From an uncultured Bacteroidales bacterium (GTDB lineage: Bacteria > Bacteroidota > Bacteroidia > Bacteroidales > Paludibacteraceae), in NCBI GenBank assembly GCA_902774185.1, contig CACYHE010000004.1, positions 1 to 64,000 of the forward strand: a stretch of DNA of 64,000 bases. The letters run 5' to 3'. Below, one piece after another: positions 2,324-57,400 of the stretch (positions are counted from its first letter, which is position 1; every line of letters begins with the position of its first letter). The notes under the pieces are model-generated. The model was not told the DNA's origin, searched no databases, and saw only the letters and a list, made by a program, of their open reading frames with translations. A program made the translations under genes and the position numbers.

Positions 2324-2716
2324 ATGGCAGTAATGAAAGTAGGCGCAGCGGGAATCGAGACGATCTCGGGTGCTATGAAGAGACCGAAGAAAATGAACGG
2401 ACACAACCACGGAAATTATCTGGTGGCAACTCACCGCACGGCGGCGACAACGAATCCGAATTGTCAGCGTGTGTACTCGTTTGACGCTGATCGTTACACC
2501 CGTACCGGCGAACCGACGTCCAAAGAGCTCAACGCTCGCACCCGTTTCTCAACTGTTCAGGCAGCGGTCAACGCTCGCGCAAAGAACCTCGCTACCTTGG
2601 CGCAAGACCAAGCAGCGTTCCTCGCGCAGAAAGACGTTGCCGGAGGTTGCAAGACCTTCAAGTCCTGGCTCTGGAAAGTCTGCGGTGATGCCTACGACGA
2701 GGCCCTCAACGGCTAA
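2324..2716 (+). CDS. hypothetical protein, 130 aa
   Basis: Unrecognised soluble protein. The start MAVMKVGAAGIETISGAMKR follows an A-rich stretch typical of Bacteroidetes translation starts. The middle contains HNHGNYLVATHRTAATTNPN and YSFDADRYTRTGEPTSKE, then a long predicted alpha-helical region rich in Ala, Arg and Gln (residues 76-107), ending in a W-containing segment (FKSWLWKVCGDAYDE). No signal peptide. It is the last gene of the small-protein island and is followed by a quasi-periodic AATGATGC tract and a strong terminator. Function cannot be inferred. Confidence 0.5.
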   Translation: MAVMKVGAAGIETISGAMKRPKKMNGHNHGNYLVATHRTAATTNPNCQRVYSFDADRYTRTGEPTSKELNARTRFSTVQAAVNARAKNLATLAQDQAAFLAQKDVAGGCKTFKSWLWKVCGDAYDEALNG

Positions 2717-2761
2717 TGGTGCTAATGATGCAAATGATGCTAATGATGAAATGGTGAATGT
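2716..2761 (+). repeat. quasi-periodic AATGATGC tract at a gene 3' end
   Basis: Immediately after the stop, units of the type AATGGTGCT, AATGATGCA, AATGATGCT, AATGATGAA and AATGGTGAATG run for about 45 bp. It belongs to the set of short dispersed tracts described in the findings. Confidence 0.6.
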
Positions 2762-2771
2762 TTAAAAAAGG

Positions 2772-2798
2772 AAAAATCGTCCAATATGGGCGATTTTT
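2772..2798 (+). terminator. rho-independent terminator
   Basis: AAAAATCG (2772-2779) pairs with CGATTTTT (2791-2798), extended inward by TCC/GGG (one T-G), giving an 11-bp stem with a 5-nt loop and a T-rich 3' side. It closes the small-gene island. Confidence 0.75.
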
Positions 2799-5533: not shown

Positions 5534-6634
5534 ATGAGACACAAAATTCTTATTTTATCGCTTCTGTTCGCTTGCGTGAGTTGCAAGGCGCAGAATGTGC
5601 CTGAACCCGACCCGCTGCCCGTTTCCTATACTTTGTGCAACGCTCAAGCTACTGTAGAGACTCAGCGGCTTTGGGGCGTGTTATGCTCCGAGTACGGCAA
5701 ACGTGCGATGAGTGGCGTGGTGGCGAATGTGGACTGGAACACGCGCGAAACGGAGAACGTCTATCAGTGGACAGGCAAATACCCTGCGCTCAATGTGTTC
5801 GACTTCATCAATATCCATGCCTCCAAGGATGTGAACAAGCAAGGTTGGCTCGATTATAGCGATCTCACTCCTGTCACGGATTGGTACAATGCAGGCGGTG
5901 TGGTGGGCTGTATGTGGCACTGGCAAGTACCTGCCAACAACGGCACGAACTATACCTGTTCGCCGGGCACCGAACCCGGACAGACGAGTTTTGACCCTTC
6001 CAAAATCAACGACCCCTCTTCCGATGAATACAAACGTATGGTCAAAGACATCGACCAAGTGGCGGGCTATCTGAAGAAGATGCAGAAACGCGGTATTCCG
6101 GTTATTTGGCGTCCGCTGCACGAAGCTTCCGGTAACACGACGGAGTTCGCAGGCGGGGGTGCATGGTTCTGGTGGGGTGCCAAGGGATCGGAAGCGTACA
6201 AAGCCCTTTGGCGGTTTATGTACGACCGCATGGTCAACTATCATAAACTGAATAACCTTATCTGGGTGTGGAACTCGCAGATAGGCGACTGGGACTGGTA
6301 CCCCGGAGACGATGTGGTTGATGTGGTTGGACGCGACAGCTACTACGCATTGCAGTACCCGCTTGCAAAGGAATACAACGAACTGAAATCGCACTACCCG
6401 AACAAGCTCATCTGCCTTGCCGAATGCGGTAATGGCGATGAGGTGGATATGTCGCTGTGGACGAAGATTTGGAATGAAGGCAGCCGATGGAGTTGGTTCA
6501 TGACATGGTATGACTACAATTACAATAACGGCACGTCCGACGAACATCAGTTTGCCGGTGAAGCATGGTGGCGCGATGCCTTCAACAGCGGAACAGTCAT
6601 TGACCGCGAAGAGATGAAACGTTTGCTAAAGTGA
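5534..6634 (+). CDS. GH26 beta-mannanase, lipoprotein
   Basis: The 366-residue reading from MRHKILILSL has a signal peptide with lipobox (V-S-C, Cys17), so it is likely an outer-membrane lipoprotein. GH26 catalytic glutamates can be placed: acid/base E197 in WRPLHEASG and nucleophile E297 in LAECGN; the WFWWG block (211-215) is also typical. It should cleave internal beta-1,4-mannosidic bonds of mannan, glucomannan or galactomannan at the cell surface. First enzyme gene after the AraC regulator. An in-frame upstream start exists 27 nt earlier but overlaps the -7 box and lacks a sensible signal peptide. Confidence 0.92.
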   Translation: MRHKILILSLLFACVSCKAQNVPEPDPLPVSYTLCNAQATVETQRLWGVLCSEYGKRAMSGVVANVDWNTRETENVYQWTGKYPALNVFDFINIHASKDVNKQGWLDYSDLTPVTDWYNAGGVVGCMWHWQVPANNGTNYTCSPGTEPGQTSFDPSKINDPSSDEYKRMVKDIDQVAGYLKKMQKRGIPVIWRPLHEASGNTTEFAGGGAWFWWGAKGSEAYKALWRFMYDRMVNYHKLNNLIWVWNSQIGDWDWYPGDDVVDVVGRDSYYALQYPLAKEYNELKSHYPNKLICLAECGNGDEVDMSLWTKIWNEGSRWSWFMTWYDYNYNNGTSDEHQFAGEAWWRDAFNSGTVIDREEMKRLLK

Positions 6635-6655
6635 AAAATGAAAAGTGAAAAATGA
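6632..6655 (+). repeat. GTGAAAAATGAAAA tract at gene junction
   Basis: AAGTGAAAAATG then AAAAGTGAAAAATG fill the junction between the GH26 stop and the next start codon, which is itself part of the tract. Member of the dispersed short-tract set. Confidence 0.6.
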
Positions 6656-7809
6656 AAGGCATCAGATACATAGCATTATCGGTCTGTACTCTGTATTCTG
6701 TACTCTGTACTCCGTCGTTCGCTGTTGAGCGGACGATCCTCATCGGTCCGAAGACGATAGGCAAGGCATGGCGCGATAACATCGTCTTGGAGCCGCGCCA
6801 TTTCTTAAATGCCAAAGCCGGCGATATTCTTACTGTCTATAACGACAAAGCTAAAGGGATTGCGCAGGGAGCTTTTCAAAACCCCTCCAACTGGCAAGGA
6901 GTGGCACCCGAATACGGCTATTTCGGTATTGCCGGACCATTCCGCATGACGCTGACAGATGATATATTAAGGATTGCGCGCGAACATGGTATCGCAGTAG
7001 GTGGACACGACTACCGCATCCTGCGTGTGACGCTGACCGATGCGGCGGATTTTTCAGAGACCGTCGTATGGAAAGGTGCACCGGTGAAGATGAAAAACGA
7101 CTGGAGTACCAGTGCAGAGATTGCCGGACGATGCTTTGAGCAACTCAATATAGGGGACGGCTTGCGGCTGCATATCAGTCATGTGGAAGAAGGAGCTGCC
7201 TGCAAACTGATGGACTTCACATGGAACGCACTCGATCCCTCCGTCGATGGAGTACCGGTTGGAGGAGACAACTACACATGGTCGGTTTGGTCACGTGCTC
7301 CGCTTCTCAAACTGCAACTGGCGGGCTATGGTACGCAGACCGCCATGCGCATCGGTGGCAAGGGTTACCGGCTGGATAGCATCGGCATCGTCAAACAGAT
7401 AGGCGAAGTAAGCGAAGACCTGACGAACGCCCAACGGGCACCACGCGAATATGTGCTCCAACCCGGAGAACTATTTCATGGGGAGAAATACTTTGCCCCC
7501 GACTGGAGTGGAAACCTCTCTGTCAATGCCGCACCTTTCCAAGAGTGTACACAGAACGATGTGCTCATCATCTCTTATCGTTTGGACGATGCCGCGGTCG
7601 CAGCCGGAACGAAGGCGCAACTATCCATCCGCGATGCCCGTTGGCAGGAGATAACCGGTGCTCCCGACCCCGTATGGTATCCCTTGGATGGCACCGATGT
7701 GGTCTATATGTTCGACCCCGTTGCATTGGATAAGGTCAAGACCCGGGGACTCATCCTCACAGGCGTGGGCTTTACGTTAACCAAAATAGAGCTCTTGCGA
7801 GCCGAATGA
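6652..7809 (+). CDS. secreted protein of three repeated beta-rich modules
   Basis: 385 residues with a signal peptide (to about residue 24, SFA-VE) and no lipobox. Three modules of about 115 residues follow, each opening with a W-G or similar turn and closing with the pattern G-L-x-hydrophobic-G-x-G/D-Y/F-x-L-x-x-I: GIAVGGHDYRILRVTL, MRIGGKGYRLDSIGI and LILTGVGFTLTKIEL. The same module occurs in the two genes after susD. Likely glycan-binding rather than catalytic (no glycosidase motif seen), helping to hold mannan at the surface. The signal-peptide region is partly made of a CTGTACT tract (6678-6714). Confidence 0.65.
   Translation: MKGIRYIALSVCTLYSVLCTPSFAVERTILIGPKTIGKAWRDNIVLEPRHFLNAKAGDILTVYNDKAKGIAQGAFQNPSNWQGVAPEYGYFGIAGPFRMTLTDDILRIAREHGIAVGGHDYRILRVTLTDAADFSETVVWKGAPVKMKNDWSTSAEIAGRCFEQLNIGDGLRLHISHVEEGAACKLMDFTWNALDPSVDGVPVGGDNYTWSVWSRAPLLKLQLAGYGTQTAMRIGGKGYRLDSIGIVKQIGEVSEDLTNAQRAPREYVLQPGELFHGEKYFAPDWSGNLSVNAAPFQECTQNDVLIISYRLDDAAVAAGTKAQLSIRDARWQEITGAPDPVWYPLDGTDVVYMFDPVALDKVKTRGLILTGVGFTLTKIELLRAE
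6678..6714 (+). repeat. CTGTACT/CTGTATT tract inside a signal-peptide coding region
   Basis: CTGTACT, CTGTATT, CTGTACT, CTGTACT run in tandem (7-bp period). The first 17 nt, ATCGGTCTGTACTCTGT, recur exactly at 44768-44784 inside apbE. Confidence 0.8.
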
Positions 7810-10982: not shown

Positions 10983-12785
10983 ATGACTATGAGAAAGAAA
11001 TTTTCAATTTTCCATTTCCAATTTTCAATTCTCATCGTCTTGGCGATGAGTGCCACTTCCTGCTCTTGGATCCAGGAAGACCCCAAGGATCTCGTCACTG
11101 ACACTACGCTCGGCGACAGCGACGAGGCGTGTGCGCAATGGGTGACAGGCGTCTATTCCAAGTGGATATACGACATGTTCTGCTGGGGCTATTTCCCGCG
11201 TATGCTGGAGTTCGATGCCGACTATATCTCCGGACCGGACTGGCTCTTCGGTACCTTTGGTGCAGGGAATTTCCAAGGCGAACCGGACCTTACCGATGCC
11301 CTCTGGAAAGGGTGCTACGGACTCATCGGACGAGCCAACAATGCCGAACTGCATATCCGCGAAATGAAGAATATATCCGATGCTACCAAGAACAACGCTA
11401 TCGGTGAACTCAAGTTCCATAAAGCTTTTGCCTATTTCCTCTTGGTGCGTGCATACGGAGAGGTACCTATCCAAAATGAACCATACGGCAAAGCAGATCG
11501 TATGAACGAAGTGAATAAAGAAATGGTAAATGAACGGAGTAATCCTCGTCAAGAGGTTACGAAGGTTTATGACTACGTCATCGCACAACTGGAAGACGCA
11601 TCGCGTCTGCTTTATAAGAACACCGACCCCGCTTACCGTCCCGGACATGTCTCTGCCGGTTCGGCTGCCGGATTGCTGGCAAAGGTCTATGCTACGGAAG
11701 CTGCCTGCGCTATGCCCGCCGGGACGGAAATCATCGTCCGTACGGGTGCTCCTTATACCACTGAGAGCGGCAACAAACGCTATGCACCTTTGCAAACACG
11801 CTCGTTCTACAAACGCACCGTGCCCGGTTATGAATCCCTCGACCCGCAGCAACTCTGGCAGCAGGCTGCCGACTGGGCGGAAGCCGTACTCGATGGCACC
11901 TACGGCAGTTACGAACTGCTGCCCTATGACCAACTGTGGCTGAAAACTAACTGCAATGCGTCCGAGTTCCTCTTTTCCGTCAACACCGTCTCAGGCGATG
12001 CTACCTATAAGACTTCCGTCCACACCCAGTACGAGGGCTATCTCACGGCTCCTAACTCCGACTTCATCCAGTCCGGCGGATGGACAGGTTGTACGCGCCA
12101 TTGGTACGACCTCTTCGACCATGACGACTACCGTATCACGAAAGGCGTACGCCATCGCTGGCGTAACTATACCCAACGGGAATCCAACTCCGGTTTCTAC
12201 TATCCCTACGATGATGAATATACCATCATGGCTACAGGCCGGAATCTTAACGGCGATTGGGTGAAAGATCCCGTGGCTCCGTTCCATGACGGTGTCAATT
12301 ACTACTACTCCGCCGATGCGCAGTGCCTCGCGTTCACTACCAAGTACGAGGATGTCACCGACCCCTCCATCGACCAAGCGGACGCCAACTGGCCATTCCT
12401 ACGTCTGGCAGATGTCATCCTTATCTATGCCGAGGCACTCAACGAACTCGACAAACCCGGAGATGCACTTGTTCAACTCAACAAGGTGCGCGAACGTTCC
12501 AATGCACAGCGCGCATCTATGGGAGGAAGCAAGGCGCTGTCCTCCAAAGAAAAACGTCGTTCGGCTATCCTCGAAGAGCGTGCCAAAGAGTTTGCCTGCG
12601 AAGCAGACCGCCGTTGGGACCTCATCCGTTGGGGAATATACCTTGATGCGATGAACGCACTCGGCGGATCCGATGACTCCGGCGTCAACAAAAACCGCAC
12701 TGAGCGAAACCTCCTCTTCCCGCTCCCGCAGCAGGAGATAAACACCAATGCCGCTATTAACGGCAATAACCCCGGCTGGCAATAA
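10983..12785 (+). CDS. susD: SusD/RagB family glycan-binding lipoprotein
   Basis: 600 residues with lipobox MSATSC after the signal peptide, then the SusD helical fold: N-terminal DPKDLVTDTTLGD, TPR-like helices (KFHKAFAYFLLVRAYGEVP) and a C-terminal end VRERSNAQ...RRWDLIRWGIYL with LLFPLPQQEI. It caps the SusC barrel at the cell surface and binds mannan oligosaccharides. The start Met may be the one at residue 3 (MRKKF). The signal-peptide coding region contains a CAATTTTC-type tract (FSIFHFQFSI), one of the dispersed tracts. Confidence 0.93.
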   Translation: MTMRKKFSIFHFQFSILIVLAMSATSCSWIQEDPKDLVTDTTLGDSDEACAQWVTGVYSKWIYDMFCWGYFPRMLEFDADYISGPDWLFGTFGAGNFQGEPDLTDALWKGCYGLIGRANNAELHIREMKNISDATKNNAIGELKFHKAFAYFLLVRAYGEVPIQNEPYGKADRMNEVNKEMVNERSNPRQEVTKVYDYVIAQLEDASRLLYKNTDPAYRPGHVSAGSAAGLLAKVYATEAACAMPAGTEIIVRTGAPYTTESGNKRYAPLQTRSFYKRTVPGYESLDPQQLWQQAADWAEAVLDGTYGSYELLPYDQLWLKTNCNASEFLFSVNTVSGDATYKTSVHTQYEGYLTAPNSDFIQSGGWTGCTRHWYDLFDHDDYRITKGVRHRWRNYTQRESNSGFYYPYDDEYTIMATGRNLNGDWVKDPVAPFHDGVNYYYSADAQCLAFTTKYEDVTDPSIDQADANWPFLRLADVILIYAEALNELDKPGDALVQLNKVRERSNAQRASMGGSKALSSKEKRRSAILEERAKEFACEADRRWDLIRWGIYLDAMNALGGSDDSGVNKNRTERNLLFPLPQQEINTNAAINGNNPGWQ

Positions 12786-12921: not shown

Positions 12922-13833
12922 ATGAAAAAAATCTTCACTTTTGCATTCGCCCTTACGGCAATGCTTGCGCTCAACGCAAAAGAAACAATCGTTTGGACAG
13001 GTAACGAGCCTATCTCGTGGAACACCGAGGTCTATCAAGGTACCCAGTTCGAGACACCAGCTAACACCTTCTCTTCCCTCAAAGCAGGATATATCATCAA
13101 GGTGTCTGTTGTGGCGATGATCGATGAACCCCAGTATGTCATGACCTACAAAGCCGGAGAAGGCTGGTCATGGACAGACCTCTCCACAACGGTAGCAGAC
13201 GGTGTCATGTCCTACACCGTCGAGTCCGACCAGATCGGTACGGAGATAGCAGATCGTAACCTCATCTTCCGCGGTCAAGGCTATAACATCACGCAGATCG
13301 TTGTCGATGATCTCAAAGGGGATGATCCCGAACCCCAACCGCAACCCGGTGGTGAGTACGTTGACCAAACCGTTTGGAGTGGGGACGTAGCTATCTCGTG
13401 GAATCCTGAGGAATATCCTGGCGAGCAATTGGATACCTACAATGTAAGGCAAGACATGCTTGCTAGTCTCGCCAAAGATGACAGCATAAAGATCTACTAC
13501 GCTGAGGCTATCGAAGGCGCACAGTTCGCCCTTACCTACAAAGCTGGTGAATCGTGGTCATGGACGGACCTCGCTATCTCGCAGCACAATGGATTCTATG
13601 CCTACCAAGTGGAATCTGATGCTATCGCACAGGACATAGCTGACCACGGTCTCGTCATCCGCGGACAAGGTTATCACGCTACCTCAATCGTCATCGGCAA
13701 ACCCAAGAGCACAACCGGCTTTGAAAGTGTTCAGTGTTCAGCTTTCAGTGGTCAGAAGATCCTCCGCAAAGGTCAAGTGCTGATCGTACGTGACGGCAAG
13801 GTTTACAATATGCTCGGACAAGAAATCAAATAA
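12922..13833 (+). CDS. secreted two-module protein with compact C-terminal motif
   Basis: 303 residues read from MKKIFTFAFALTAML; the A-rich leader upstream is not coding. Signal peptide without lipobox, then two repeats of about 112 residues (20-133 and about 152-263) that align well: WTGNEPISWN/WSGDVAISWN, YKAGEGWSWTDL/YKAGESWSWTDL and RGQGYNITQIV/RGQGYHATSIV. A Pro-rich linker (PEPQPQPGG) joins them. The last 25 residues (KILRKGQVLIVRDGKVYN...) form a motif shared with two other secreted proteins here. It sits where susE/F-type surface glycan-binding proteins usually lie, so mannan binding is the likely role; the C-terminal motif may replace a lipid anchor. Confidence 0.65.
   Translation: MKKIFTFAFALTAMLALNAKETIVWTGNEPISWNTEVYQGTQFETPANTFSSLKAGYIIKVSVVAMIDEPQYVMTYKAGEGWSWTDLSTTVADGVMSYTVESDQIGTEIADRNLIFRGQGYNITQIVVDDLKGDDPEPQPQPGGEYVDQTVWSGDVAISWNPEEYPGEQLDTYNVRQDMLASLAKDDSIKIYYAEAIEGAQFALTYKAGESWSWTDLAISQHNGFYAYQVESDAIAQDIADHGLVIRGQGYHATSIVIGKPKSTTGFESVQCSAFSGQKILRKGQVLIVRDGKVYNMLGQEIK
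13756..13833 (+). other. compact C-terminal sorting-like motif
   Basis: Codes the last 25 residues, K-I-L-R-x-G-Q-x-x-I-x-R-x-G-x-x-Y-N-x-x-G-Q-x-x-K. Also at 15508-15585 and, slightly diverged, 59742-59816. It is preceded by a variable linker. Confidence 0.6.
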
Positions 13834-20045: not shown

Positions 20046-21199
20046 GTCCTGCAGAATTGAAAGCATCGGCACAGCAGATGCTGGAAGAAAACATACTGGC
20101 TTATTGGTTGAAGCTGCGTGACGATAAGCGTGGAGGGTTCTATGGTCAGGTCACCGGTGATGAGATACTCGTTCCCGAAGCACCTCGTGGAGCGATTCTC
20201 AACGCCCGTATCTTGTGGACGTTCTCGTCCGCTTATCGCATTCTGCATAAGCCCGAATACCTACAAGCCGCACAGGAAGCGAAACGCTATATCGAGACGT
20301 ATTTCATCGACCGTGAGAACAGGGGTGCGTATTGGTCGGTAACGGCAGATGGTGCGCCGCTGGATACGCATAAACATTTCTACGCCCAGGCCTTCATGCT
20401 TTATGCCTTCAGTGAGTATATACGTGCCACCGATGACCAGACGGCTTTGCCTATAGCGGATGCTTTCTTCCGCGTACTGGAGACCTATGGTCGGGATCGT
20501 GTCTATGGCGGTTATATAGAAGCCGCTTCACGTGACTGGCAAGCCCTTTCCGATATGCGGCTCAGTGACAAAGATGAGAACACCGTCAAGTCGCAGAATA
20601 CGAACCTTCATGTGCTGGAGGCGTACACCAATTACTATCGCGTAGCACCGACACCCGAAGTAAGCGAAGCCTTACTTTCGCTCATCGACACGTTTCAACA
20701 CGCTATCATGCTTCCTTCCGGTCACCTCGGACTCTTTTTTGACGAACAATGGAACGCCACGAACGATCATTATAGTGCCGGCCATGACATCGAGTGCTCA
20801 TGGTTACTCAAAGAAGCGGCAGATGTGTTGGGTATCGACTGCAATAAGACCGTTCTGCTCCTTGCTCAAGCAGCGCAGGAAGGACTGTACGAAGACGGTT
20901 CTATCGGTGAGAAAACCTGGTGGGAAGAGGCAGAAAACGTTGTCGGATTTGTCAACCTATGTCAGATGACGGACAATCGTCGAAAGTCAAAAGACGAAAG
21001 TCGAAAGCAGGCGTATTGGGACATCGCGATAAGGACGTATCGCTACATCCTGAATGTGTTGCTGGATCGTGAACACGGCGAATGGTTCTGGTCTGTTCTG
21101 CCCGATGGGACGCCGAATCGCAAAGAGGATAAAGCCGGTTTTTGGAAATGTCCCTACCACAACTCCCGTATGTGTTATGAAATTTTAGAGCGATTATGA
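20042..21199 (+). CDS. cellobiose/mannobiose 2-epimerase
   Basis: 385 residues, cytoplasmic, (alpha/alpha)6 barrel of the N-acylglucosamine 2-epimerase family. Features: RGGFYGQVTGD, LNARILWTFSSAYR, HKHFYAQAFMLYAFSEY, the catalytic-His segment GHDIECSWLL and CPYHNSRMCYE near the C terminus. Expected reaction: beta-1,4-mannobiose to 4-O-beta-mannosyl-glucose, feeding the GH130 enzyme encoded just upstream. The loop NRRKSKDESRKQ (coded by 20976-21010) is built from a dispersed DNA tract also present in an acyltransferase gene at 32463-32489. 4-nt overlaps at both ends. Confidence 0.92.
   Translation: MSPAELKASAQQMLEENILAYWLKLRDDKRGGFYGQVTGDEILVPEAPRGAILNARILWTFSSAYRILHKPEYLQAAQEAKRYIETYFIDRENRGAYWSVTADGAPLDTHKHFYAQAFMLYAFSEYIRATDDQTALPIADAFFRVLETYGRDRVYGGYIEAASRDWQALSDMRLSDKDENTVKSQNTNLHVLEAYTNYYRVAPTPEVSEALLSLIDTFQHAIMLPSGHLGLFFDEQWNATNDHYSAGHDIECSWLLKEAADVLGIDCNKTVLLLAQAAQEGLYEDGSIGEKTWWEEAENVVGFVNLCQMTDNRRKSKDESRKQAYWDIAIRTYRYILNVLLDREHGEWFWSVLPDGTPNRKEDKAGFWKCPYHNSRMCYEILERL
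20981..21007 (+). repeat. CGAAAGTC tract inside the epimerase gene
   Basis: 27 nt, units CGAAAGTC, AAAAGA, CGAAAGT, CGAAAG. The reverse complement occurs at 32463-32489 with a single mismatch; both are read in frame as RKSKDESRK. Confidence 0.85.
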
Positions 21200-22176: not shown

Positions 22177-24009
22177 TTACAACTCTATCGCGGCACATTT
22201 GTACGCGAGATACGATTTCTCTTCGTCGTTGAGCAACGGAGAGATTTCTTTATACACACGCACGTGGTAAGCGTTGAGCCAGTCGATTTCGTCTTCGGTC
22301 ATCAGACTCATCTCGATCAGCGAAGTGTCATAGAAGCAGAGCGTCAGGGTTTCGAAAGTGAGCCACTCATCTTCGGTGGTGGTAGCCTTGGTCTGTTTTG
22401 CCGGAATGACGGTGATCAGGTTCTCCGTACGAATACCCCATTTATCGGTGCGGTAGATACCGGGTTCATCAGAGATGATGTGGCCTACTTCGAGTGCGGT
22501 AGGGTTATTGTCGGTGCGCACGTTCTGCGGTCCTTCGTGGCAACCCAAGAAATGGCCGACGCCATGCCCCGTTCCGTGACCATAGGTGATACCTGCTTCC
22601 CACATGTATTGTTTGGCGAGGGCGTCAAGTTGGTTACCTCTTGTGCCGCGCGGGAAACGTGCCCGTTGAAGGGCGATATGTCCTTTAAGGACATAGGTGT
22701 AGTCCAGTTTAGCCTGTTGCGGAATACGTCCTCCGAGCCAAACGGTACGGGTGATATCGGTGGTACCATCGAGGTACTGACCACCCGAATCCAACAGGAG
22801 CATGCCTTCCGGTTTGACTACTGCACAATTCTCAGGCGTAGCCGCATAATGGACGATTGCTCCGTTTCCTTGATAACCGGCGATGGTACCGAAGGACTCA
22901 TCGGTGAAGTTCTCACCCATCGCCCGGAACTCATGCAGTTTGTCCGCAAGGGTACACTCCGTTTGGGTTTTACCGTCCGCAAAAGCATCCTCTTCAAGCC
23001 ATTTGAAGAAACGGGTGAGAGCGACGGCGTCTTGCCGCATGGCGATACGTTCGCCTTCCAGTTCAACGGCATTCTTCTTGGCTTTGTCAATGAGAATCGG
23101 GGACTTGGTATTGATCTTCAGACATCCTTCCGGAATGGCTTCATACAACGCCTCATTCACCCGTGCACCGTCGTATAAGATGGCACCGCTGAGACCCTTG
23201 ATGTAGTCAAAGACTGCCTCGTAGGGTTGAATGTCTATATTGTTGAAATCCAAGTAGTTCTGCGCCGGAGCGTCCACTTTGTTTGCATCTACGAACAGGG
23301 TGCATTTATCGGCTTCCAGCACGACGTAGGAGATAACCACCGGGTTATACTCCACATCTTTTCCCCGGATGTTGAGTAACCAAGCGATTTCGTCCAAAGC
23401 GCTGACGATAAGCGCATACTTTCCACTTTCCACTTTCCACTTTCCACTAATCAAAGCACGCATTCTTGCGAGCTTTGATTCAACCGTCTCACCGGCAAAG
23501 TCAGCAGAGTAGGGATATAGTTTGTCTTGCGGGATAGCGGGACGACCTTCGGTCCAAATCGGCTTGATTAAATTGAAAGATGAAAGTTGAAAATTGAAAG
23601 ACTCCAATTTCTCTTTCCATTCCTGATAGTCGTTGACGGAAAACATTTCCGGATTAACGCCCACAACAAACCTTTCTCCTTTCACTTTTAATTTTTCACC
23701 TTCTTCACAAAGCCAATCGATAATCTTGGGACAATCGACATCCGATTCCCGCATGAGTTCGATGGTGGAATCTTTGAGTTCGATTCCTGCCTGCAGGTAA
23801 TAACGACTGTCGGTCCACAGCAGGGCACGGTCCAAGGTGATGACCATCGTGCCGGACTCGCCGTTGAAGCCCGAGATCCACTGCATTTCAAACCAATGCG
23901 AAGCCATATATTCACTGGCGTGAGGGTCATTGCCGGGTACTACATACGCCGCCAATCCTGCTTCACGCATCTCCTGCCGCAATGCGGCCAAACGCTCTAC
24001 TACTTTCAT
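22177..24009 (-). CDS. pepP: Xaa-Pro aminopeptidase (M24B)
   Basis: 610 residues, the long three-domain form. Two N-terminal creatinase-like domains (1-about 310) and a C-terminal pita-bread domain with metal ligands: LLDSGGQYLDGTTDIT (two Asp), GTGHGVGHFLGCHEGP (His), SDEPGIY and RTENLI (Glu). Cytoplasmic, removes N-terminal residues before proline. The N-terminal part contains three tract-derived segments (GEKLKVKGERF; ESFNFQLSSFNLI; SGKWKVESGKYA). Own promoter, divergent from yycJ. Confidence 0.9.
   Translation of the reverse strand: MKVVERLAALRQEMREAGLAAYVVPGNDPHASEYMASHWFEMQWISGFNGESGTMVITLDRALLWTDSRYYLQAGIELKDSTIELMRESDVDCPKIIDWLCEEGEKLKVKGERFVVGVNPEMFSVNDYQEWKEKLESFNFQLSSFNLIKPIWTEGRPAIPQDKLYPYSADFAGETVESKLARMRALISGKWKVESGKYALIVSALDEIAWLLNIRGKDVEYNPVVISYVVLEADKCTLFVDANKVDAPAQNYLDFNNIDIQPYEAVFDYIKGLSGAILYDGARVNEALYEAIPEGCLKINTKSPILIDKAKKNAVELEGERIAMRQDAVALTRFFKWLEEDAFADGKTQTECTLADKLHEFRAMGENFTDESFGTIAGYQGNGAIVHYAATPENCAVVKPEGMLLLDSGGQYLDGTTDITRTVWLGGRIPQQAKLDYTYVLKGHIALQRARFPRGTRGNQLDALAKQYMWEAGITYGHGTGHGVGHFLGCHEGPQNVRTDNNPTALEVGHIISDEPGIYRTDKWGIRTENLITVIPAKQTKATTTEDEWLTFETLTLCFYDTSLIEMSLMTEDEIDWLNAYHVRVYKEISPLLNDEEKSYLAYKCAAIEL
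23419..23448 (-). repeat. CTTTCCA tract inside the aminopeptidase gene
   Basis: CTTTCCA repeated four times (7-bp period; TGGAAAG on the coding strand), read as SGKWKVESGK in a linker between conserved blocks. Similar tracts lie at 23568-23607 and 23673-23700 in the same gene. Confidence 0.8.
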
Positions 24010-33214: not shown

Positions 33215-33215
33215 A

Positions 33216-46018: not shown

Positions 46019-46777
46019 TTATCTTAAATAAACTCCTAATGTTGCATTCAAATGGATTACGTTGAGTTTGGCCATCGGGTTGACGCATAACTGCGCCTGT
46101 GCCATCATCCCGCATCGTTCTGCAATGTTCCAGTTTTTGCAAATACTGAACTCGATGTTCTGCAGCGCGGCCCCGTTGGGGTTATAGCAGCCCTTCCAAG
46201 GGGTTATACCAATCGTTCCGTAGAGACTCCATCCGTCCTGCAGGGGTTGGCTATAACGGATTTCCGCATAACTCGAATAGGCACGAACAAGTTCGCCTGC
46301 GGCATTGAGATACGCGTCCGAGGCGGCTACTCGAGTGGCCCATGCCAGCGTCAGACGTGTCTTGGGGATGGTATAGCGGACGTTCATCTCCAAGCGGTTT
46401 CCTTTGTCGATATAGTTACCTCCGTCAAAGAAACCGCAGTTGAAGTTGTGGATATAGAGCAGGAATACATCCAGTCCCCAACGGTTAAAACCGAGTGTAA
46501 AATCGACCTCCGGTTGGAAGGCGTGGAACGCGATGTCCGAGGCTCCGATATTCCACCACATGTCCGCATACACACCGTAGTACCCTACATTCGCACTGGC
46601 TTGAATATTCGGTCCTCCGGCATACAAGCCGCGCCATAAATAGGCAGCCTGCACCCTTGCCTGTGCGTTATACGTGAGCTCTCCTGCGCGCGCGATGTTA
46701 ACAAAAGGTAGCGCTCCGATGCAAAGCACCAGAGCGATTACTTTTTTACCGATAACCGATAACCGAAAACCGTTCAC
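46019..46777 (-). CDS. outer-membrane beta-barrel protein, paralogue of neighbour
   Basis: 252 residues with signal peptide (to about ARA-GE) and barrel pattern including VQAAYLWRGLYAGGPNIQAS, WWNIGASDIAFHAFQPEVDFTLGF, ending LNATLGVYLR. Clearly related to the next gene (YLWRG, GASD, PEVDF blocks, SPW/TPW near the end). Gene pair then apbE form a tight run. The first codons (MNGFRLSVIGKK) are coded by an ACCGATA tract (46749-46779), so the true start may be a later Met or Val. Confidence 0.7.
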   Translation of the reverse strand: MNGFRLSVIGKKVIALVLCIGALPFVNIARAGELTYNAQARVQAAYLWRGLYAGGPNIQASANVGYYGVYADMWWNIGASDIAFHAFQPEVDFTLGFNRWGLDVFLLYIHNFNCGFFDGGNYIDKGNRLEMNVRYTIPKTRLTLAWATRVAASDAYLNAAGELVRAYSSYAEIRYSQPLQDGWSLYGTIGITPWKGCYNPNGAALQNIEFSICKNWNIAERCGMMAQAQLCVNPMAKLNVIHLNATLGVYLR

Positions 46778-46779
46778 CG
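46749..46779. repeat. CCGATAA/CCGAAAA tract at a start codon
   Basis: ACCGATA, ACCGATA, ACCGAAA, ACCGTTC, ACCG units (7 bp) cover the start region of the barrel gene. Confidence 0.65.
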
Positions 46780-46783
46780 TTTA

Positions 46784-50436: not shown

Positions 50437-51335
50437 TTTTATCAATGACCGGCTACGGGAAAGCCGAAACAAATGTAAGAGGAAAGAAACTGATGTGCGA
50501 GATTCGTTCGCTGAACTCCAAATCGATGGACCTGTCGGTTCGTCTGGCTCCGCAAGTGCGGGCACGTGAACTCGATATCCGTACCATCGTGTCCCAACGC
50601 TTGGAACGGGGGAAAGTGGATCTATTATTGATGAATGATGGAATGAGCGAGACTTCGTCTCTCAATGATGTATCCCCCATTAACTGGGGTGCGGTGAGGA
50701 CGTATGCGGAGCAGTACAAGGCGCAGATGGGCGTATCGGAGGTTCCTTCGGAAGTGATGGCAGCCATCATGCGTTTCCCCGATGTGATCAAACAACAGGA
50801 AGATAACTCCGATTTGACGGAGGAAGAGTGGGGTGCGGTGCAAGCTTTGTTGAATAAAGCTATCGATGCGTTCATCGCTTTCCGTACGCAGGAAGGCGCG
50901 GCGCTACAAGCGATGTTCAACGAGAAACTGGACGGTATTGCGGACCTGTTGTCACAAGTGGAACCCTTCGAGAAAGGACGTGTGGCGAAGATCAAAGAGC
51001 GTCTGGAGGCAAATCTGGCTCAATTATCGGCGCAGACACAGGCAGAAATCGACCGTAACCGTCTGGAGCAGGAGATGATCTACTATCTGGAGAAACTGGA
51101 CATCACCGAAGAGAAAGTGCGTCTCACAAATCATATCAAGTACTTCCGGGAAGTAATGGCGAATGGCGAACGGACGAAAGGCGAAGGAAAACAACTTGGA
51201 TTCATTGCGCAGGAGATGGGACGCGAGATCAATACGCTTGGCTCCAAATCGAACCAAAGCGAGATGCAGATCATCGTTGTCAAAATGAAAGATATATTAG
51301 AACAAATTAAGGAACAAGTACTGAACGTATTATGA
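50433..51335 (+). CDS. yicC: YicC-family RNase-like protein
   Basis: 300 residues: MILSMTGYGKAE start, EIRSLNSKSMDLSVRL, and the C-terminal DUF1732 part (GFIAQEMGREINTLGSKS). YicC proteins are endoribonucleases/adaptors for RNA turnover. The segment FREVMANGERTKGEGKQL contains an AATGGCGAATGGCGAA tract (51155-51187). Overlaps mnmE and gmk by 4 nt each. Confidence 0.92.
   Translation: MILSMTGYGKAETNVRGKKLMCEIRSLNSKSMDLSVRLAPQVRARELDIRTIVSQRLERGKVDLLLMNDGMSETSSLNDVSPINWGAVRTYAEQYKAQMGVSEVPSEVMAAIMRFPDVIKQQEDNSDLTEEEWGAVQALLNKAIDAFIAFRTQEGAALQAMFNEKLDGIADLLSQVEPFEKGRVAKIKERLEANLAQLSAQTQAEIDRNRLEQEMIYYLEKLDITEEKVRLTNHIKYFREVMANGERTKGEGKQLGFIAQEMGREINTLGSKSNQSEMQIIVVKMKDILEQIKEQVLNVL
51155..51187 (+). 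repeat. AATGGCG tract inside yicC
   Basis: AATGGCGAATGGCG (51155-51168) then ACGGACGAAAGGCGAAGG. The same 14-mer occurs at 53914-53927 at the prmA/nadD overlap. Confidence 0.75.
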
Positions 51336-51892
51336 TTTATATATTTTGTGCGCCTTCGGGTAGCGGTAAATCGACGATGGTGAAGCATCTGCTGACGATG
51401 CATCCGGATCTGTTTGAGTTGTCGGTATCATGTACGACCCGTGCACCGCGTGGACAGGAAGTACACGGTAAAGAGTATTATTTCATTACCGTGGAAGAGT
51501 TCCAAAAACACATTGAGAATGAGGACTTTATTGAGTTTGAGCAGGTGTATGAAGGTCTCTACTACGGTACGCTCAAAGAAGAAATTGACCGTATCGAAGC
51601 AGCCGGCAGGCAAGTGTTGTTTGATGTCGATGTTAAAGGCGGACTTAAACTGAAGAAGATCTTGGGTGATAAAGCGACCTCTATTTTCATCTGTCCTCCG
51701 TCGATAGAAGAACTTCGTCGTAGGTTGGAAGGACGCGGTGATACGAGTCCCGAGATGATTGAGAAACGTCTGGCGAAAGCTTCCATTGAAATGGAATATA
51801 TGAAGCATTTCGACCGCGTGGTGGTTAACGATGACCTCACGCATGCGTTTGAGCAGTTAGACGAGATTATTGATGAAGGGATGAATGGCTGA
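51332..51892 (+). CDS. gmk: guanylate kinase
   Basis: 186 residues: P-loop APSGSGKSTMV, SCTTRAPRGQEVHGKEYYF (GMP binding), LFDVDVKGGLKLKK, ending HAFEQLDEIIDEGMNG. Phosphorylates GMP to GDP. Part of mnmE-yicC-gmk-folC-prmA run; an ATGGCTGAACGGGTGAACGGGTGA tract lies between it and folC. Confidence 0.96.
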   Translation: MIYIFCAPSGSGKSTMVKHLLTMHPDLFELSVSCTTRAPRGQEVHGKEYYFITVEEFQKHIENEDFIEFEQVYEGLYYGTLKEEIDRIEAAGRQVLFDVDVKGGLKLKKILGDKATSIFICPPSIEELRRRLEGRGDTSPEMIEKRLAKASIEMEYMKHFDRVVVNDDLTHAFEQLDEIIDEGMNG

Positions 51893-51908
51893 ACGGGTGA
51901 ACGGGTGA

Positions 51909-53183
51909 ATGAATTTTAGCGAAGCGGTCACATATCTGTATAACTCCCGTCCGCCTTTCCATCAAGTAGGGGCATCGGCGTATAAACCCGGTTTGGAGAA
52001 TACGTTGCGTCTAATGGCGCATGTGGGTAACCCGCATGCATCCTTGCGTGCGATTCACGTAGCCGGAACGAACGGAAAGGGTTCCACCTCGCATCTGATT
52101 GCTTCGGTGCTACAAGCGGCAGGGTTTAAAGTGGGGCTTTTCACGAGTCCGCATCTGGTTAGTCTGACCGAACGCATTCGTATCAACGGTACGCCTATTC
52201 CCGAAGAGACCGTGGCGGCTTTTGTGACGGAGAACAAGGCTTTTCTAGAAGAACTGCAACCTTCGTTCTTTGAGACTATGACCGCTTTGGGGTTCTGGTA
52301 TTTCGTACAAGAGAAGGTAGATATAGCGGTGGTGGAAGTAGGTCTTGGCGGTCGTTTAGACAGCACGAACGTATTGACGCCTATCCTCTCCGTGATCACC
52401 AATATCGGTTTGGACCATACGGAGTTCTTAGGAAACACCTTAGCTGAGATAGCAGGAGAGAAAGCCGGTATCATCAAAGCGCATGTGCCGGTGGTCATCG
52501 GAGAAAGTAACCCGGAAACGGATCCCGTCTTTGAACAATGTGCGCAAGCCTGCGAAGTACCGATCTGGTTTGCGGACCAATGCGAATACCTGCGCCGTAC
52601 CCGCCTGCGTTTTGCGCCCGAATGCGAGTTGCAGGGCATCTATCAGGAACATAATCTGCAGACAGCGTTTGTAGCATTAAGAGCTTTGGGAGCACAGAAC
52701 ACTGACCGCTGCGCTGACAAAGCACAGACCATTTCAAATAGCCAAATAGCCGAAGGCTTCGCGCATGTGGCTTCGATGACGGGATTACGGGGACGATGGG
52801 AGACGCTAAGTAAGAAGCCGTTGGTCATTTGCGATACGGGACATAATAGTCATGGAATCCGATACGTAGCGGAGCAAATATATGCCTTGCCTAACCCGCA
52901 TGTGTGGATCGTTTTCGGTATGGTGAACGACAAAGATACGGACGTTGTCATGCAGTTATTGCCGCAGGGAGATCGGTTTCATTATATTTTTACACGACCC
53001 GATACGCAACGTGCCCGAACGGCAGAAGAGATGTTGGAATTATGGGGAAAGGATGGTTTGGCCATCGAAGATCCTAAGGATGCCATCGATTATGCCTTGC
53101 AGCAGGTAGCACCGGAGGATGCGATTTTTATTGGAGGAAGTAATTATTTGGTAGGTTATGCGATATCACGTTTTACACATTAA
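51909..53183 (+). CDS. folC: dihydrofolate/folylpolyglutamate synthase
   Basis: 424 residues. Mur-ligase fold: VAGTNGKGSTSHL (P-loop), PHLVSLTERIRING, VGLGGRLDSTNV, NIGLDHTEFLG, ICDTGHNSHG and ends VGYAISRFTH. Adds glutamate to folates. The loop GAQNTDRCADKAQTISN is made of a tract shared with apbE. Overlaps prmA by 26 nt. Confidence 0.94.
   Translation: MNFSEAVTYLYNSRPPFHQVGASAYKPGLENTLRLMAHVGNPHASLRAIHVAGTNGKGSTSHLIASVLQAAGFKVGLFTSPHLVSLTERIRINGTPIPEETVAAFVTENKAFLEELQPSFFETMTALGFWYFVQEKVDIAVVEVGLGGRLDSTNVLTPILSVITNIGLDHTEFLGNTLAEIAGEKAGIIKAHVPVVIGESNPETDPVFEQCAQACEVPIWFADQCEYLRRTRLRFAPECELQGIYQEHNLQTAFVALRALGAQNTDRCADKAQTISNSQIAEGFAHVASMTGLRGRWETLSKKPLVICDTGHNSHGIRYVAEQIYALPNPHVWIVFGMVNDKDTDVVMQLLPQGDRFHYIFTRPDTQRARTAEEMLELWGKDGLAIEDPKDAIDYALQQVAPEDAIFIGGSNYLVGYAISRFTH
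52691..52728 (+). repeat. tract in folC shared with apbE
   Basis: GACCGCTGCGCTGACA (52703-52718) matches apbE exactly in reverse complement, and the flanks (CACAGAA...CACAGACC) match approximately. Both are read as QNTDRCAD. Confidence 0.85.
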
Positions 53184-53949
53184 GACTTCTTTTGAGGAAG
53201 AGTGGCAACAAGATGTTTTTGACCAGATGTTGGTCGAATACGGTATTGATACGATCGTTGCCAAAGGGGATCCTTTTAACGGGTATAAGTCCAAGTATTA
53301 TCTGCCGTCCGAACAATGGGAGTTACACCAAAAGGACATAGAAGCCTATGTTGATCGGAAAGGAGCTCGCTTGCTTCGCGTGGAAGCCTGTCCGGACAGG
53401 AATTGGAACGCCAAATGGGAGGAAGAGCATCCGGTGCATGAGTTAGCTTTAGGCATTACGATCGTGCCGCATTGTGCTTTTGGCGCAGGCTATCATCAGA
53501 CGACCTCTATGATGACGGAGGCTTTGCAGCAAGCGGACTTGAAAGGAAAGACGGTGCTGGATCACGGTACCGGAACCGGCGTGCTGGCGATCTTTGCCAA
53601 GCGTTTAGGTGCCGCACAAGTTGTAGCGGTAGATATCGACGAGAAGAGTGTGGAGAATGCCAAAGAGAATGCGGCTTTGAACCATGAGGACATCGAAGTG
53701 CTGCACACATCAGCATTCCACTTTTCACCTTCCACCTTCCACCTTATACTTGCCAATATTCACCGTAATATATTAATGGAACACATGCGTGCGTACGCGC
53801 AGAGTTTGAAACCGAACGGCGAGTTATGGATGAGCGGATTCTTCGAATTCGATTGCAAGATGCTGCAAAACGCTGCCCAAAAAGAAGGACTGCAAGTTAT
53901 AGACGTCCTTGAGAATGGCGAATGGCGGTTGATGAGATGTCGAAAGTAG
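53158..53949 (+). CDS. prmA: ribosomal protein L11 methyltransferase
   Basis: 263 residues: N-terminal ferredoxin-like part and SAM domain with LDHGTGTGVLAIFAKRLGA, VVAVDIDEKSVENA, LILANIHRNIL. Methylates L11. Contains a tract HFSPSTFHL (53717-53745), and its last residues (ENGEWRLMRCRK) come from an AATGGCG tract overlapping nadD on the other strand by 53 nt. Confidence 0.93.
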   Translation: MRYHVLHIKTSFEEEWQQDVFDQMLVEYGIDTIVAKGDPFNGYKSKYYLPSEQWELHQKDIEAYVDRKGARLLRVEACPDRNWNAKWEEEHPVHELALGITIVPHCAFGAGYHQTTSMMTEALQQADLKGKTVLDHGTGTGVLAIFAKRLGAAQVVAVDIDEKSVENAKENAALNHEDIEVLHTSAFHFSPSTFHLILANIHRNILMEHMRAYAQSLKPNGELWMSGFFEFDCKMLQNAAQKEGLQVIDVLENGEWRLMRCRK

Positions 53950-54403
53950 GAGCTTCTCTAAGGAAAACGATATTCGGATTATTCAGAATATTCGGATTAA
54001 TCTGATTTCTGGGATACACAAAGATCCGGTAGTTAGCTAAGATATACTCATACTCCTTCCATTGATCGAAAATGGCGAGGTTATCTTCCCCGATGACGAG
54101 CGTGAACTCGTGCTCGGGGAATTTTTTTTGCAGTTCGCGTAAGGTATTCGCGGTGTAGGACGGACGAGGTAGGGAGAACTCAAAATCACTGGCTAACACA
54201 TGCGGGATATCTTGGATTGCTTCTTGTACTGCCGCCAAGCGTTCCTCTTCGGGTGCTAAGAGACCTGCAGGTTTGAGCGGGTTATTAGGACTAACCAACA
54301 ACCATAACTCATCGAGGTCCGTGTTCTCAATGACCCATTTGGCTAATCCCACATGCCCGAAATGCACCGGATTAAAACTGCCCCCATAGATACCGATTTT
54401 CAT
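53897..54403 (-). CDS. nadD: nicotinate-nucleotide adenylyltransferase, short C terminus
   Basis: 168 residues. IGIYGGSFNPVHFGHVGLA (GxFxPxHxGH), LWLLVSPNNPLK, FTLVIGEDNL and FDISSTAIR (SSTxIR) are present, so the ATP/NaMN site is intact. After SSTAIR only HSQGRL follows; other NadD proteins continue for about 20-30 residues with a helix (xxGxxxxxLxPxxVxxYI). The end coincides with an AATGGCG tract. The segment NQINPNILNNPNIVFL is coded by the 20-mer shared with yggS. Probably functional but this needs testing. Confidence 0.85.
   Translation of the reverse strand: MKIGIYGGSFNPVHFGHVGLAKWVIENTDLDELWLLVSPNNPLKPAGLLAPEEERLAAVQEAIQDIPHVLASDFEFSLPRPSYTANTLRELQKKFPEHEFTLVIGEDNLAIFDQWKEYEYILANYRIFVYPRNQINPNILNNPNIVFLREAPTFDISSTAIRHSQGRL
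53974..53993 (-). repeat. 20-mer shared exactly with the yggS part
   Basis: TCGGATTATTCAGAATATTC, identical to 30501-30520, read as NILNNP within nadD. Confidence 0.85.
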
Positions 54404-54436
54404 CGATTTGAAATTTGTAATTGGTAATTTGTGATT

Positions 54437-57400
54437 TCAGTTTTTCTCTACCACTTTGAAATCCAGTAACCCTTCTGCCCGTTTCATGCAGAGCCATTTA
54501 TAGAAACGCGGAGTGACACGAATCGGTAAGGATCGGCTGGTGAGGGCTACGTGTTGCCGGTTGAGCGGGTTGAAGACGGTGATATGCAGTCGTTCCTGCC
54601 CCGGGTTCGCTTGGATGATGTCTTTGAGTTCATCGATCAGTTCCGGTGTGACGGCATCGATCGCCAAGCGCAGGTTGATTCCTTCCGTGCGTTTGTCTTG
54701 AGACTCGTTGAGCATCTCGACTTGTTGTACCACAAATTCAAACTCCGCCTCCTCGTCTTTGGCTTCCCGGAACCATTTCTGTCCGGCACCTTTCTGTTGC
54801 ACGACACCGGAGACAAGGACGTACAGGTCTTTGAGCAGAAGATGTCCGAACCGGTTGTAGGTATTACCGAACAGAGCGAACTCATAGCTGCCGGTATAGT
54901 CTTCGATGACATAACGGCCGTAGGGGTTGCCTTTCTGACTGATACGTTGCTCTGCCGAAGTGATCAGACCACCGATGAGGCAAGGTTGGTTCTTATGCGC
55001 AGTCAGGAACTCGGACGGGATGAGCGGTTTCTCTTCCATCGTGTCAGCGTTCTCTGCGATGTCAACACGAATCCGTTTCTCGGCTTCGGCTCGCTCTTCG
55101 GGTTTGCGCCAACGTTCGAAAAGACTTAACTCATTGGCGCTTACCGAACAGAGTTCACGAATCTCAAACTCATACTCATCCAGCGGGTGAGCGGAGAGGT
55201 AGATACCGATAAGGTCTTTCTCTTTATTAAGTCGCTCGATCGTATCCCATCTCGGTACCTGCGGCAGGTCCGGATGTTTCACTTCGATAGCAAGATCAAG
55301 ATCCCCAAAAAGGGAGAGGGCGTTGTTCTCTTTGTCTGCTTGCCATTTCTGCCCGTAGTTCATCAGCAGATCCAGTCCGGAGGCACCGTTGTCATCAACG
55401 CCGAAGAACTGCTCCCGATAGATATCGTCGAAGCACTCGAAGGCACCAGCTTGGGCAAGATTCTCAATGGTCTTACGGTTACAGGACTGTAAGCTCACCC
55501 GCTCCAGGAAATCGAAGATACCGGTGTACTTACCGTTCTTCTCCCGTTCCCGAATGATGGCGTCTGCCGCTCCTTCACCAACCCCCTTGATACCGCCTAA
55601 ACCGAACCGGATATCGCCTTTGCTGTTGACGGTGAAATTAAGTTCCGATTCATTGATATCGGGTTCTAACACACTGAGACCTAAGGCTTTGCATTCGTCC
55701 ATCAGTTTGGTTACCTCTTTGATATCATCCTTGTGGATAGTAAGGTTAGCCGCCATGAACTCTGCCGGATAATGTGCTTTGAGGTAACCCGTCTGGTACG
55801 CCACCCAGGAGTAACAAGCGGCATGCGATTTATTGAAGGCGTAAGAAGCAAATTTCTCCCAGTCTTTCCAAATCTTCTCGAGCGTATTGGGATTGTGACC
55901 GTTCGCCTTACCGCCTTCCATGAACTTGTCCTTGAGCGAAGCCAGTACAGCCATCTGTTTCTTACCCATCGCCTTACGAAGCTTATCGCTCTCGCCTCGG
56001 GTGAAGTTCGCCAGCAGACGACTGAGCAGCATGACTTGCTCTTGATACACTGTCACACCATAGGTGTCCTTTAGGTATTTCTCCATGACGGGGATATCAT
56101 AGGTGACGGGCTTAAGTCCCTGCTTACGGTCGATGAACTCCGGGATATAATCCATTGGTCCGGGGCGGTAGAGGGCGTTCATGGCGATGAGGTCCCCGAT
56201 GACGGTCGGTTTGAGTTGGCGAAGGTATTTCTGCATACCGGCAGACTCGAACTGGAACACAGCCACGGTGCGTCCGTCCTGGAAGAGTTTGTAGGTCAAC
56301 TCATCGTCAATAGGAATATGGTTGATGTCGATGTCGATACCGCGTGCTTTCTTGACGTTACGCAGACACTCTTTGATGATGGTAAGTGTGATGAGCCCCA
56401 GGAAGTCCATCTTGATCAGTCCGACCGATTCAACTACGTGTCCGTCATACTCGGTAACGAGCACGCGTTTCTTACTTGCCTTATCTTCCACAGAGGAGAG
56501 GGGTGCGAAATTCGTCAGGTCATCGGCTCCGATGATCACACCGCAGGCATGAACGCCCACTTGCCGGATCGTTCCTTCGAGCCTTGCTGCATACTCCAGC
56601 ATCGAACGCGTGTTGGGATCCCCTTCTTCATACTCATGTTTGAGTTCGCTAATGTACTTATAGCAGTTCTTGAGGTTGACTTTCGGTTTTTTCGCCCCTT
56701 GCGGTAAGTCTTTGAGCACGCTATCCGGAAAATCACGGTCTGGGATGTAACCCTTTAGTTCATTGACGAAGGACAGCGGTACTTGTTGTACACGTCCTAC
56801 ATCCGCCAGAGCAGACTTGGTTGCCATCTTACCATAGGTGACGATATGTGCCACATGGGTCTCTCCGTACTTACGGCTCACATAGTCCAGCACTTTGCCT
56901 CGTCCGCAGTCCTCGAAGTCGGTATCGATATCGGGTAGGGAGATACGGTCGGGGTTGAGGAAACGCTCAAACAGGAGGTCGTACTCCAAGGGGTCGAGGT
57001 CGGTTATCTTAAGGCAGTACGCAACAACGGAACCGGCTGCCGAACCACGTCCCGGACCTACGGAAACGTCTAACTCTTCGCGTGCCGCACGAATGAAATC
57101 CATCACGATAAGGAAGTAACCCGGAAAACCCATTGAGATGATGGTGTTGAGTTCGAACTCAATCCGTTCTTTGAGTTCTTCATCGGTGTCGAGTCGTTCC
57201 TGTCCGTACCGTTCCAGCGCACCTTGCATAGTCAAATAACGCAGGTACGCACTCTCGAAAGCCAGACGGTCAGGATAGTCTTCTTCCTTACCGAACGAAG
57301 CCGGAATGTCGAACTTCGGCATGATAGGTCCGTGGTCGATGTCATAGACTTCGACTTTGTCCACTATTTCCTGCGTGTTCTCCAGTGCTTCGGGGATATC

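Follow-up and report, generated by a model that had tools for sequence, protein, structure and literature searches.

Heptad tracts dispersed in a Paludibacteraceae genome: fixed sites, changing units and a possible fold-back origin

What writes short tandem repeats into the reading frames of conserved genes, and how do the frames survive? The question is raised by a stretch of 64,000 nucleotides from an uncultured Bacteroidales bacterium of the Paludibacteraceae (GenBank assembly GCA_902774185.1, contig CACYHE010000004.1), which was analysed as a whole and is called the window here (G000:C4:1-64000). Tracts built mostly of 7-bp units, or heptads, are scattered between its genes and, in frame, within them. 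Many unit families occur in this one genome, and the same protein loops carry different heptads in different relatives.

Heptad tracts in the window's genome and its relatives

The tracts are far more frequent than expected by chance. At a score of 12 or more, the window holds 12 period-7 tracts, against 0.0 expected from 20 dinucleotide shuffles; periods 8, 9 and 11 are also above chance (4, 2 and 2 tracts). The assembly has 2.19 Mb in 35 contigs and is 87% complete. In 755 kb of it (34%), searched at a period-7 score cut-off of 11, 229 period-7 tracts were counted. The numbers for periods 8, 9, 10 and 11 were 35, 24, 17 and 21, and the 174 and 64 tracts at periods 14 and 21 are harmonics of 7, so that no rival period apart from the harmonics exceeds 35. 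Short exact lag-7 runs are likewise in excess. The tract-forming process is chiefly a 7-bp one, with other periods included.

The 229 tracts fall into 79 unit families, and the spectra of families differ from genome to genome. The AAAGTTG family alone accounts for 30 tracts. Counted without a shuffled control, 1734 distinct 20-mers are repeated at loci more than 500 bp apart; 355 of them are centred in the heptad tracts of at least two loci, although the tracts make up 1.2% of the bases. Five further members of the genus, sampled at 86 to 395 kb each with a score of 12 (one 2-kb overlap in the G004 sample was counted twice), gave densities of 9.0 to 29.6 tracts per 100 kb; that of the window's genome is 27.7. 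Heptad tracts are therefore present in 6 of 6 genus members sampled at length. A contrast in gene presence and absence within the genus, based on a 20-kb comparison in which G006 had 0 tracts and G017 had 1, was dropped because larger samples of both genomes do hold tracts. Elsewhere in the order, where TTGAAAR was the only unit searched, it was found in 14 of 148 other genomes from many families. By eye, the TTGAAAR tracts of G165, G176, G097 and G180 often lie directly before ATG. In another distant genome, a long TTGAAAR array (G094:C60:1635-1850) has a broken Y1 transposase match (1162-1401) some 230 bp away.

The lengths peak at 30-34 bp, which corresponds to four heptads and an overlap of 2-4 nt; the most populated classes are 30 bp (37 tracts), 32 bp (23), 31 bp (22) and 33 bp (19). 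Peaks were seen at 32 and 29 bp in G014, at 33-34 bp in G035 and at 33 bp in G006, and the 13 and 18 tracts of G004 and G017 were too few for a length peak. Typical tracts, read on the G-rich strand, are AG(TTGAAAG)4, ATTG(GTGATTG)4, ATTT(GTGATTT)4 and AATT(GAAAATT)4. The exact form (AGNNNNN)4AG is found in 16 tracts, whose flanks are unrelated by eye. Flanks within a family are also unrelated by eye, save for a few letters (e.g., GAAA-GGA and CGG-TCTGTG). Identical 30-mers such as AGTTGAAAGTTGAAAGTTTAAAGTTGAAAG occur at several loci between unrelated flanks.

By a simple longest-ORF rule, under which 93% of the sequence is coding, 103 tracts are in the interior of an open reading frame (ORF), 46 lie no more than 75 bp from an ORF end and 80 are between ORFs. 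Of the interior tracts, 68 have the G-rich strand in antisense and 32 in sense, with 3 ties. Since 7 and 3 have no common factor, three or more clean units give the same codon cycle in every frame; this means that a heptad without stops leaves every frame open. Three units also add exactly 21 bp. The sense unit holds a stop triplet in 24 of the 103 interior tracts, and a perfectly regular version would stop in frame in all 24. These frames are open because of an irregular unit, as any open ORF requires.

The use of fixed sites is best seen in pepP. The closest pepP relatives of the window's genome are mostly ruminant-gut metagenome-assembled genomes (MAGs) titled Paludibacteraceae or uncultured Bacteroidales, and nearly all the genomes compared are MAGs. 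A tract is present in 23 of 57 distinct pepP sequences, at a few loops; the four main loops hold 13, 5, 5 and 11 unit families. In the window, the tract of the second loop is (AGTGGAA)4+AGT on the coding strand (23418..23448, minus; strands given for tracts are those of the G-richer strand), and another pepP tract, of TGAAAG(A/T), lies at 23574..23599 (plus). In the same second loop, AGTCAAG is used in L117, AGTCRAA in L127, L141, L145, L152 and L176, and AAATCGT in L118, L144 and L158; other species have a short loop such as EQLAKKKADAM. Between close pairs, the unit at one site can be changed completely. Whole units are also gained or lost between close pairs (21 bp in L118/L120, 35 bp in L139/L176). 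In L118/L120 and L127/L152, a block including the tract is swapped and the rest is 94-95% identical; these swaps look like recombination between species.

Loops of other proteins behave similarly. Period-7 tracts of another unit are found in the loop of mannose-1-phosphate guanylyltransferase in 1 of 4 relatives (L258), of MtaB in 3 of 5 (L252-L254), of a TtcA-like protein in 2 of 6 (L281 and L283; L285 has an octad) and of an EamA transporter in 3 of 5 (L288-L290; L291 shows period 14 only). The RsmH loop has a heptad tract in 0 of 5 relatives. At gene junctions, the tract before argS, of the (AGTTGAG)4AG type (25709..25738, plus), is absent from L115 and L166. The period-8 tract GTTTGAAA at a stop/start junction (24941..24968, plus) is matched by a different octad, CGTTAAAN, in L115 and by none in L166 and L116.

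Other inserts share these loops. GC-rich palindromic inserts, similar to repetitive extragenic palindromes (REPs), occur where other species have heptads, at pepP site 1 of L124, L130 and L147 and in the loops of rsmH (L248) and the guanylyltransferase (L259). In L257, the guanylyltransferase loop holds a degenerate period-11 insert.

Hairpins and the origin of the tracts

Some tracts are flanked by a hairpin, and this hairpin is one-sided. When the tracts are read with the G-poor strand on top, 22 of the 229 have a stem that scores at least 7 and starts 0-2 nt away on the 3' side. The 5' side has one in 1 of 229 tracts, and random places in 11 of 2512; the p values are 6e-17 and 4e-6. The loop is 3-5 nt in 20 of the 22, and the stems vary between loci by eye. 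Five of the hairpins are in ORF interiors, five at ORF ends and 12 intergenic. Transcription terminators were considered as their cause and ruled out for the 10 in or at ORFs. In pepP, the arm adjoining the site-2 tract (23449..23462, minus) codes for the end of MRALI, and the opposite arm (23467..23480, minus) consists of host codons for ESKLA, with one mismatch between the two. The GCT codon (A) of the window's genome stands where 45 of 58 rows have E; A is also found in L151. The 20 TTGAAAR stretches from the distant genomes G165, G176, G097 and G180 had no adjacent stem above 5.

The explanation tentatively preferred here, with confidence well short of even, is that tracts of about four heptads are written in one burst, by fold-back of a 3' end followed by reiterative copying, and that they are later subject to selection, slippage and recombination. 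In this model, a DNA 3' end that has stalled would fold back on itself and copy its own upstream arm. A template of 9-11 nt is then predicted to be recopied about four times, with a realignment of 2-4 nt each time, and the product would be rejoined; fold-back, short extension, reiterative copying and rejoining would presumably follow in this order. Ordinary replication or repair polymerases might serve as the writers, and the hairpins would be products of the event, not pre-existing stall sites. Selection would keep inserts that hold the frame, lack in-frame stops and lie in loops or junctions. Surviving tracts would drift, change by whole units and likely pass between species by recombination. 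This explanation is favoured because the hairpins are polar and the length is fixed, and because of the overlap phases. In the interior units of 30-32-bp tracts, 16 of 462 cells mismatch at the overlap ("anchor") phases, compared with 88 of 675 at the remaining phases (p 8e-9), an invariance that is partly favoured by the finding of tract ends, with interior units only being counted. The more specific proposal of a telomerase-like realign-and-recopy repair route, which would work without a reverse transcriptase (RT), seal about four heptads into chromosomes and keep feeding fresh in-frame loops into essential proteins, is considered unlikely.

The bias of tract-end finding is one of several points that weigh against fold-back copying. 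No such hairpin accompanies 207 of the 229 tracts. The hairpin excess is weak in G006 (3 of 41 against 0 of 41) and G014 (2 of 72 against 0 of 72), and none is seen in G035 and G004 together (1 of 80 against 3 of 80), in G017 (0 of 21 on both sides) or at 27 further loci (1 of 46 against 1 of 46 on the other side). This suggests either a recent burst in the window's genome or a link that is not general. When six loci were compared with relatives for a new arm, the result was clear at one, partial at two, pre-existing at one and without a clear call at two. The sole clear case is the guanylyltransferase, where four relatives lack the arm that lies between the tract and YIQF. In pepP, the TTGATT is found in L154 as well, beside a decayed AGTGGAA tract but with neither the GCT nor the hairpin; pepP thus shows at most an arm correction, in which only the GCT codon improves the match. 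For the partial case of the ttcA-like gene, relatives already have a quasi-palindrome; the mtaB hairpin is largely present already in L256, and rsmH and EamA gave no clear call. In intergenic same-strand cases, the hairpin precedes the G-rich tract in the gene sense in 8 of 10, and this shared orientation means that gene-end hairpins might account for intergenic cases. Several loci have identical tracts down to the same variant unit, as would fit the copying of ready-made 30-mers. Finally, slippage plainly acts too, as seen from the whole-unit changes between relatives.

Stepwise slippage of ordinary heptanucleotide simple sequence repeats (SSRs), seeded by chance and filtered in coding copies for frame and loops, is rated almost as likely a source of the tracts. 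It would explain the indels of 21 and 35 bp and the excess of short lag-7 runs, and heptanucleotides are described as the most abundant class of long SSRs in most genomes, with the contact length of the polymerase proposed as the reason (PMC4679880, PMC4692102). It fits poorly with lengths that peak at four units with no fall-off, with tract ends that stay the same throughout a family although the flanks are unrelated, with unit variation limited to certain phases and with a hairpin on one side. Nor does it account for a few unit families spread over tens of loci in one genome, as for AAAGTTG. The identical 30-mers such as AGTTGAAAGTTGAAAGTTTAAAGTTGAAAG between unrelated flanks, the family-specific extra flank letters seen by eye, the 355 repeated 20-mers and the genome-specific spectra would be expected if tiny dispersed cassettes of about 30 bp were copied from locus to locus by a mobile or gene-conversion-like process. 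This seems fairly unlikely, in view of 79 unit families in one genome, the occurrence of TTGAAAR in many families of the order, and the lack of a match to Y1 transposase, Cas1 or RT in the window's genome (87% complete). An earlier note on this DNA had left open whether the repeats are made or copied: identical 30-bp tracts favour copying or a shared template, whereas the 79 families and the one-sided hairpins favour new synthesis. Its wider claim of an active repeat-making process feeding loops to proteins is partly supported, in that short repeats are made.

It is very unlikely that old tract alleles are only shuffled between species by homologous recombination, with nothing newly made. The pepP mosaic, in which L127/L152 and L118/L120 differ by whole blocks, and the tract and flank letters shared by L154 and the window's genome at pepP site 2 do point to recombination; it accounts for spread, not origin. 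The 229 tracts of 79 families need a source, and L115 and L166 lack the junction tract at 25709. A general origin in chance, in low-complexity protein sequence or in artefacts of assembly is hardly credible. The argS stretch at 25956 is protein-like and the genomes are nearly all MAGs, but no tracts arise in shuffles, the frame is kept, the same loops are used in genomes of different projects, and junctions carry tracts too.

Several enzymes were sought as writers. The RT domain RVT_1 had no match in the window's genome, G014, G035, G004 or G022, and was found in 14 of the 61 genomes of the genus, including G025 and G027; an RT was rejected as the writer because it was not found in several tract-rich genomes. 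Y1_Tnp had no match in the window's genome, G014, G004, G006 or G017 and weak ones in G022 and G035. An origin through REPs and their associated tyrosine transposases (REP/RAYT) was rejected, since Y1_Tnp was not found in the window's genome. Cas1 was not found in 6 of 7 genus members searched, the window's genome included (G017 was positive), and Cas1-type integration of ~30-bp pieces was rejected on the same ground. PolX, searched by its thumb domain, was found in 0 of 23 genomes, and PolX-made repeats were rejected.

The tracts of the window

The earlier note had listed 24 places with tandem tracts of 7-12-bp units between genes and in frame within them. At a score of at least 9, a tract was confirmed at 21. 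The unit length of 15 is period 7 (or double), two have period 8 and three period 9; the place at 7804 has period 4/12. No tandem tract was detected at 44768, 52691 and 53914. The first two hold another dispersed element of the type ACAGACCGCT[T/G]CGCTGACAG, and the third has only about two units (TRF). The placement between and within genes was upheld, as were the tracts named in argS, pepP, yggS, yicC and prmA; those placed in apbE, folC and the interior of nadD were not, because these three coordinates fail. The apbE and folC hits are due to the other element. Tracts do recur at fixed sites where the unit family changes from species to species, as seen in pepP, the four other proteins and the junctions. 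Conservation of residues under other codons in relatives, which had been named as the mark of ordinary protein sequence, was found for the stretch in argS at 25956..25981 (plus). This heptad-like stretch is old: GEWLM.NGEG is kept in L115, L166 and L116 with partly other codons.

NCBIfam names were obtained in the window for argS, folC, nadD, yicC, prmA, apbE, guanylate kinase, dnaE and an ORF joining YggS and HAD domains. Heptad tracts at gene junctions are AAAGTGA/AAAATGA at 6628..6657 (plus), TATTTAC at 33214..33250 (no strand assigned) and, between nadD and dnaE, a tract of five ATTT/ATTG anchors with varying 3-nt spacers at 54406..54437 (plus). At or near gene starts are TCTGTAC in ORF 6652-7809 (6683..6715, minus), AATTTTC in a SusD-like ORF (10999..11034, minus) and ACCGATA in ORF 46019-46777 (46748..46781, minus). 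Within genes are AGTGTTC in ORF 12868-13833 (13726..13748, plus; outside the earlier list), GTCGAAA in a cellobiose 2-epimerase-like ORF (20979..21007, plus), AAATTTG in the YggS-HAD ORF, which is coded on the minus strand (30626..30659, plus), AAAGTCG in a GlsA-like acyltransferase ORF (32462..32495, minus), a weak AATGGCG tract in yicC (51155..51173, plus; score 9.5) and a tract in prmA (53716..53745, minus). Longer periods are represented by the period-9 tract GCTAATGAT at a gene end (2712..2748), a period-9/18 tract in argS (27243..27293) and a period-9 tract in the YggS-HAD ORF (30501..30532), all three without a strand, and by a period-8 tract between guanylate kinase and folC (51872..51909, plus).

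The TCTGTRY heptads at 6683-6715 recur at gene starts at C1:105448, 106368 and 115611, after a shared GCATTATCGG-like flank, and would read as hydrophobic N-termini. The YggS-HAD ORF (29716-31050) joins a YggS-like pyridoxal phosphate protein (14-214) to a HAD phosphatase (222-435), a possible gene fusion. The second dispersed element, ACAGACCGCT(T/G)CGCTGACAG, is an imperfect palindrome of about 20 bp at 44760-44810 and 52690-52735; it also occurs at pepP site 4 of L158 and L150 and is often joined to ACACAGA heptads. Period-11 and period-33 arrays (TACGTAATTGA and others) lie at 47266-47317 and 4266-4344.

Relation to known systems

Small inserts tolerated in conserved genes are known from the Rickettsia palindromic elements (mentioned in PMC6649704), which differ from the present tracts in being palindromic. 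Telomerase-like synthesis of tandem-repeat DNA, from a 9-nt motif by repeat addition, is described for the RT DRT10 (PMC12632851); here the RT is unmatched in the window's genome and several tract-rich relatives. Interstitial telomeric sequences are described as short repeat tracts sealed into a break, with empty orthologous sites, but these accounts concern telomerase, one unit and vertebrates (PMC2246262, PMC7215372). In quasipalindrome template switching, one arm of an inverted repeat is copied to match the other, in coding sequence too; the cited accounts have no heptad tract beside the copied arm (PMC7202029, PMC8604942, PMC8794818). The TAACTGA heptamers of Beggiatoaceae, cyanobacteria and five Bacteroidetes, including Paludibacter, are described as direct repeats that number two to six copies in the main genome, frequently stand just ahead of start codons and are scattered in distribution; the unit there is single and fixed, and related heptamers are rarely or never repeated in that account (PMC4679880).

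Other bacterial heptads are comparable too. According to Mrazek et al. (2007), as cited in PMC4679880 and PMC4692102, 7-nt units dominate among long SSRs and polymerase-linked slippage was proposed. Tandem 7-nt units beyond chance and whole-unit length variation between relatives are found here as well; a constant four-unit length, fixed in-frame loops and one-sided hairpins are not mentioned in the cited accounts of these SSRs. Xanthomonas and Nostoc have heptads of the GGGAATC / GGGGA(C/T)T kind. Two Xanthomonas genomes are reported to hold 186 and 183 dispersed tracts, the majority with four units and certain unit positions conserved; most of them lie between genes that are the same in the two species, and they vary in length and sequence (PMC4692102). 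The four-unit mode is shared by the window's genome and roughly by G014, G035 and G006. That survey sought one G-quadruplex (G4)-type unit and found 7-11% of tracts intragenic (PMC4692102); in contrast to one G4-type unit with 89-93% intergenic tracts, there are 79 families here, and 45% of tracts are inside ORFs. Convergent tract pairs, as in Xanthomonas, were seen in 9 of 25 close pairs and are not convincing. The open-access literature searched gave no paper on tandem repeats of Paludibacteraceae, and many families in one genome, in-frame reuse of the same loops and one-sided hairpins were not found in it.

The origin of short new protein segments is usually hard to see, since inserts decay. 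Among the many sequenced species of this genus, the inserts at given loops of housekeeping proteins are fresh, decayed, replaced or missing, so that gain, unit identity, decay and exchange can be traced, and heptad inserts could supply proteins steadily with new loops in nature. Heptad repeats themselves are a known bacterial class; their in-frame use at fixed loops, with many families, is the new part. That Xanthomonas shows the four-unit length too hints that a single property of the polymerase underlies heptads in bacteria.

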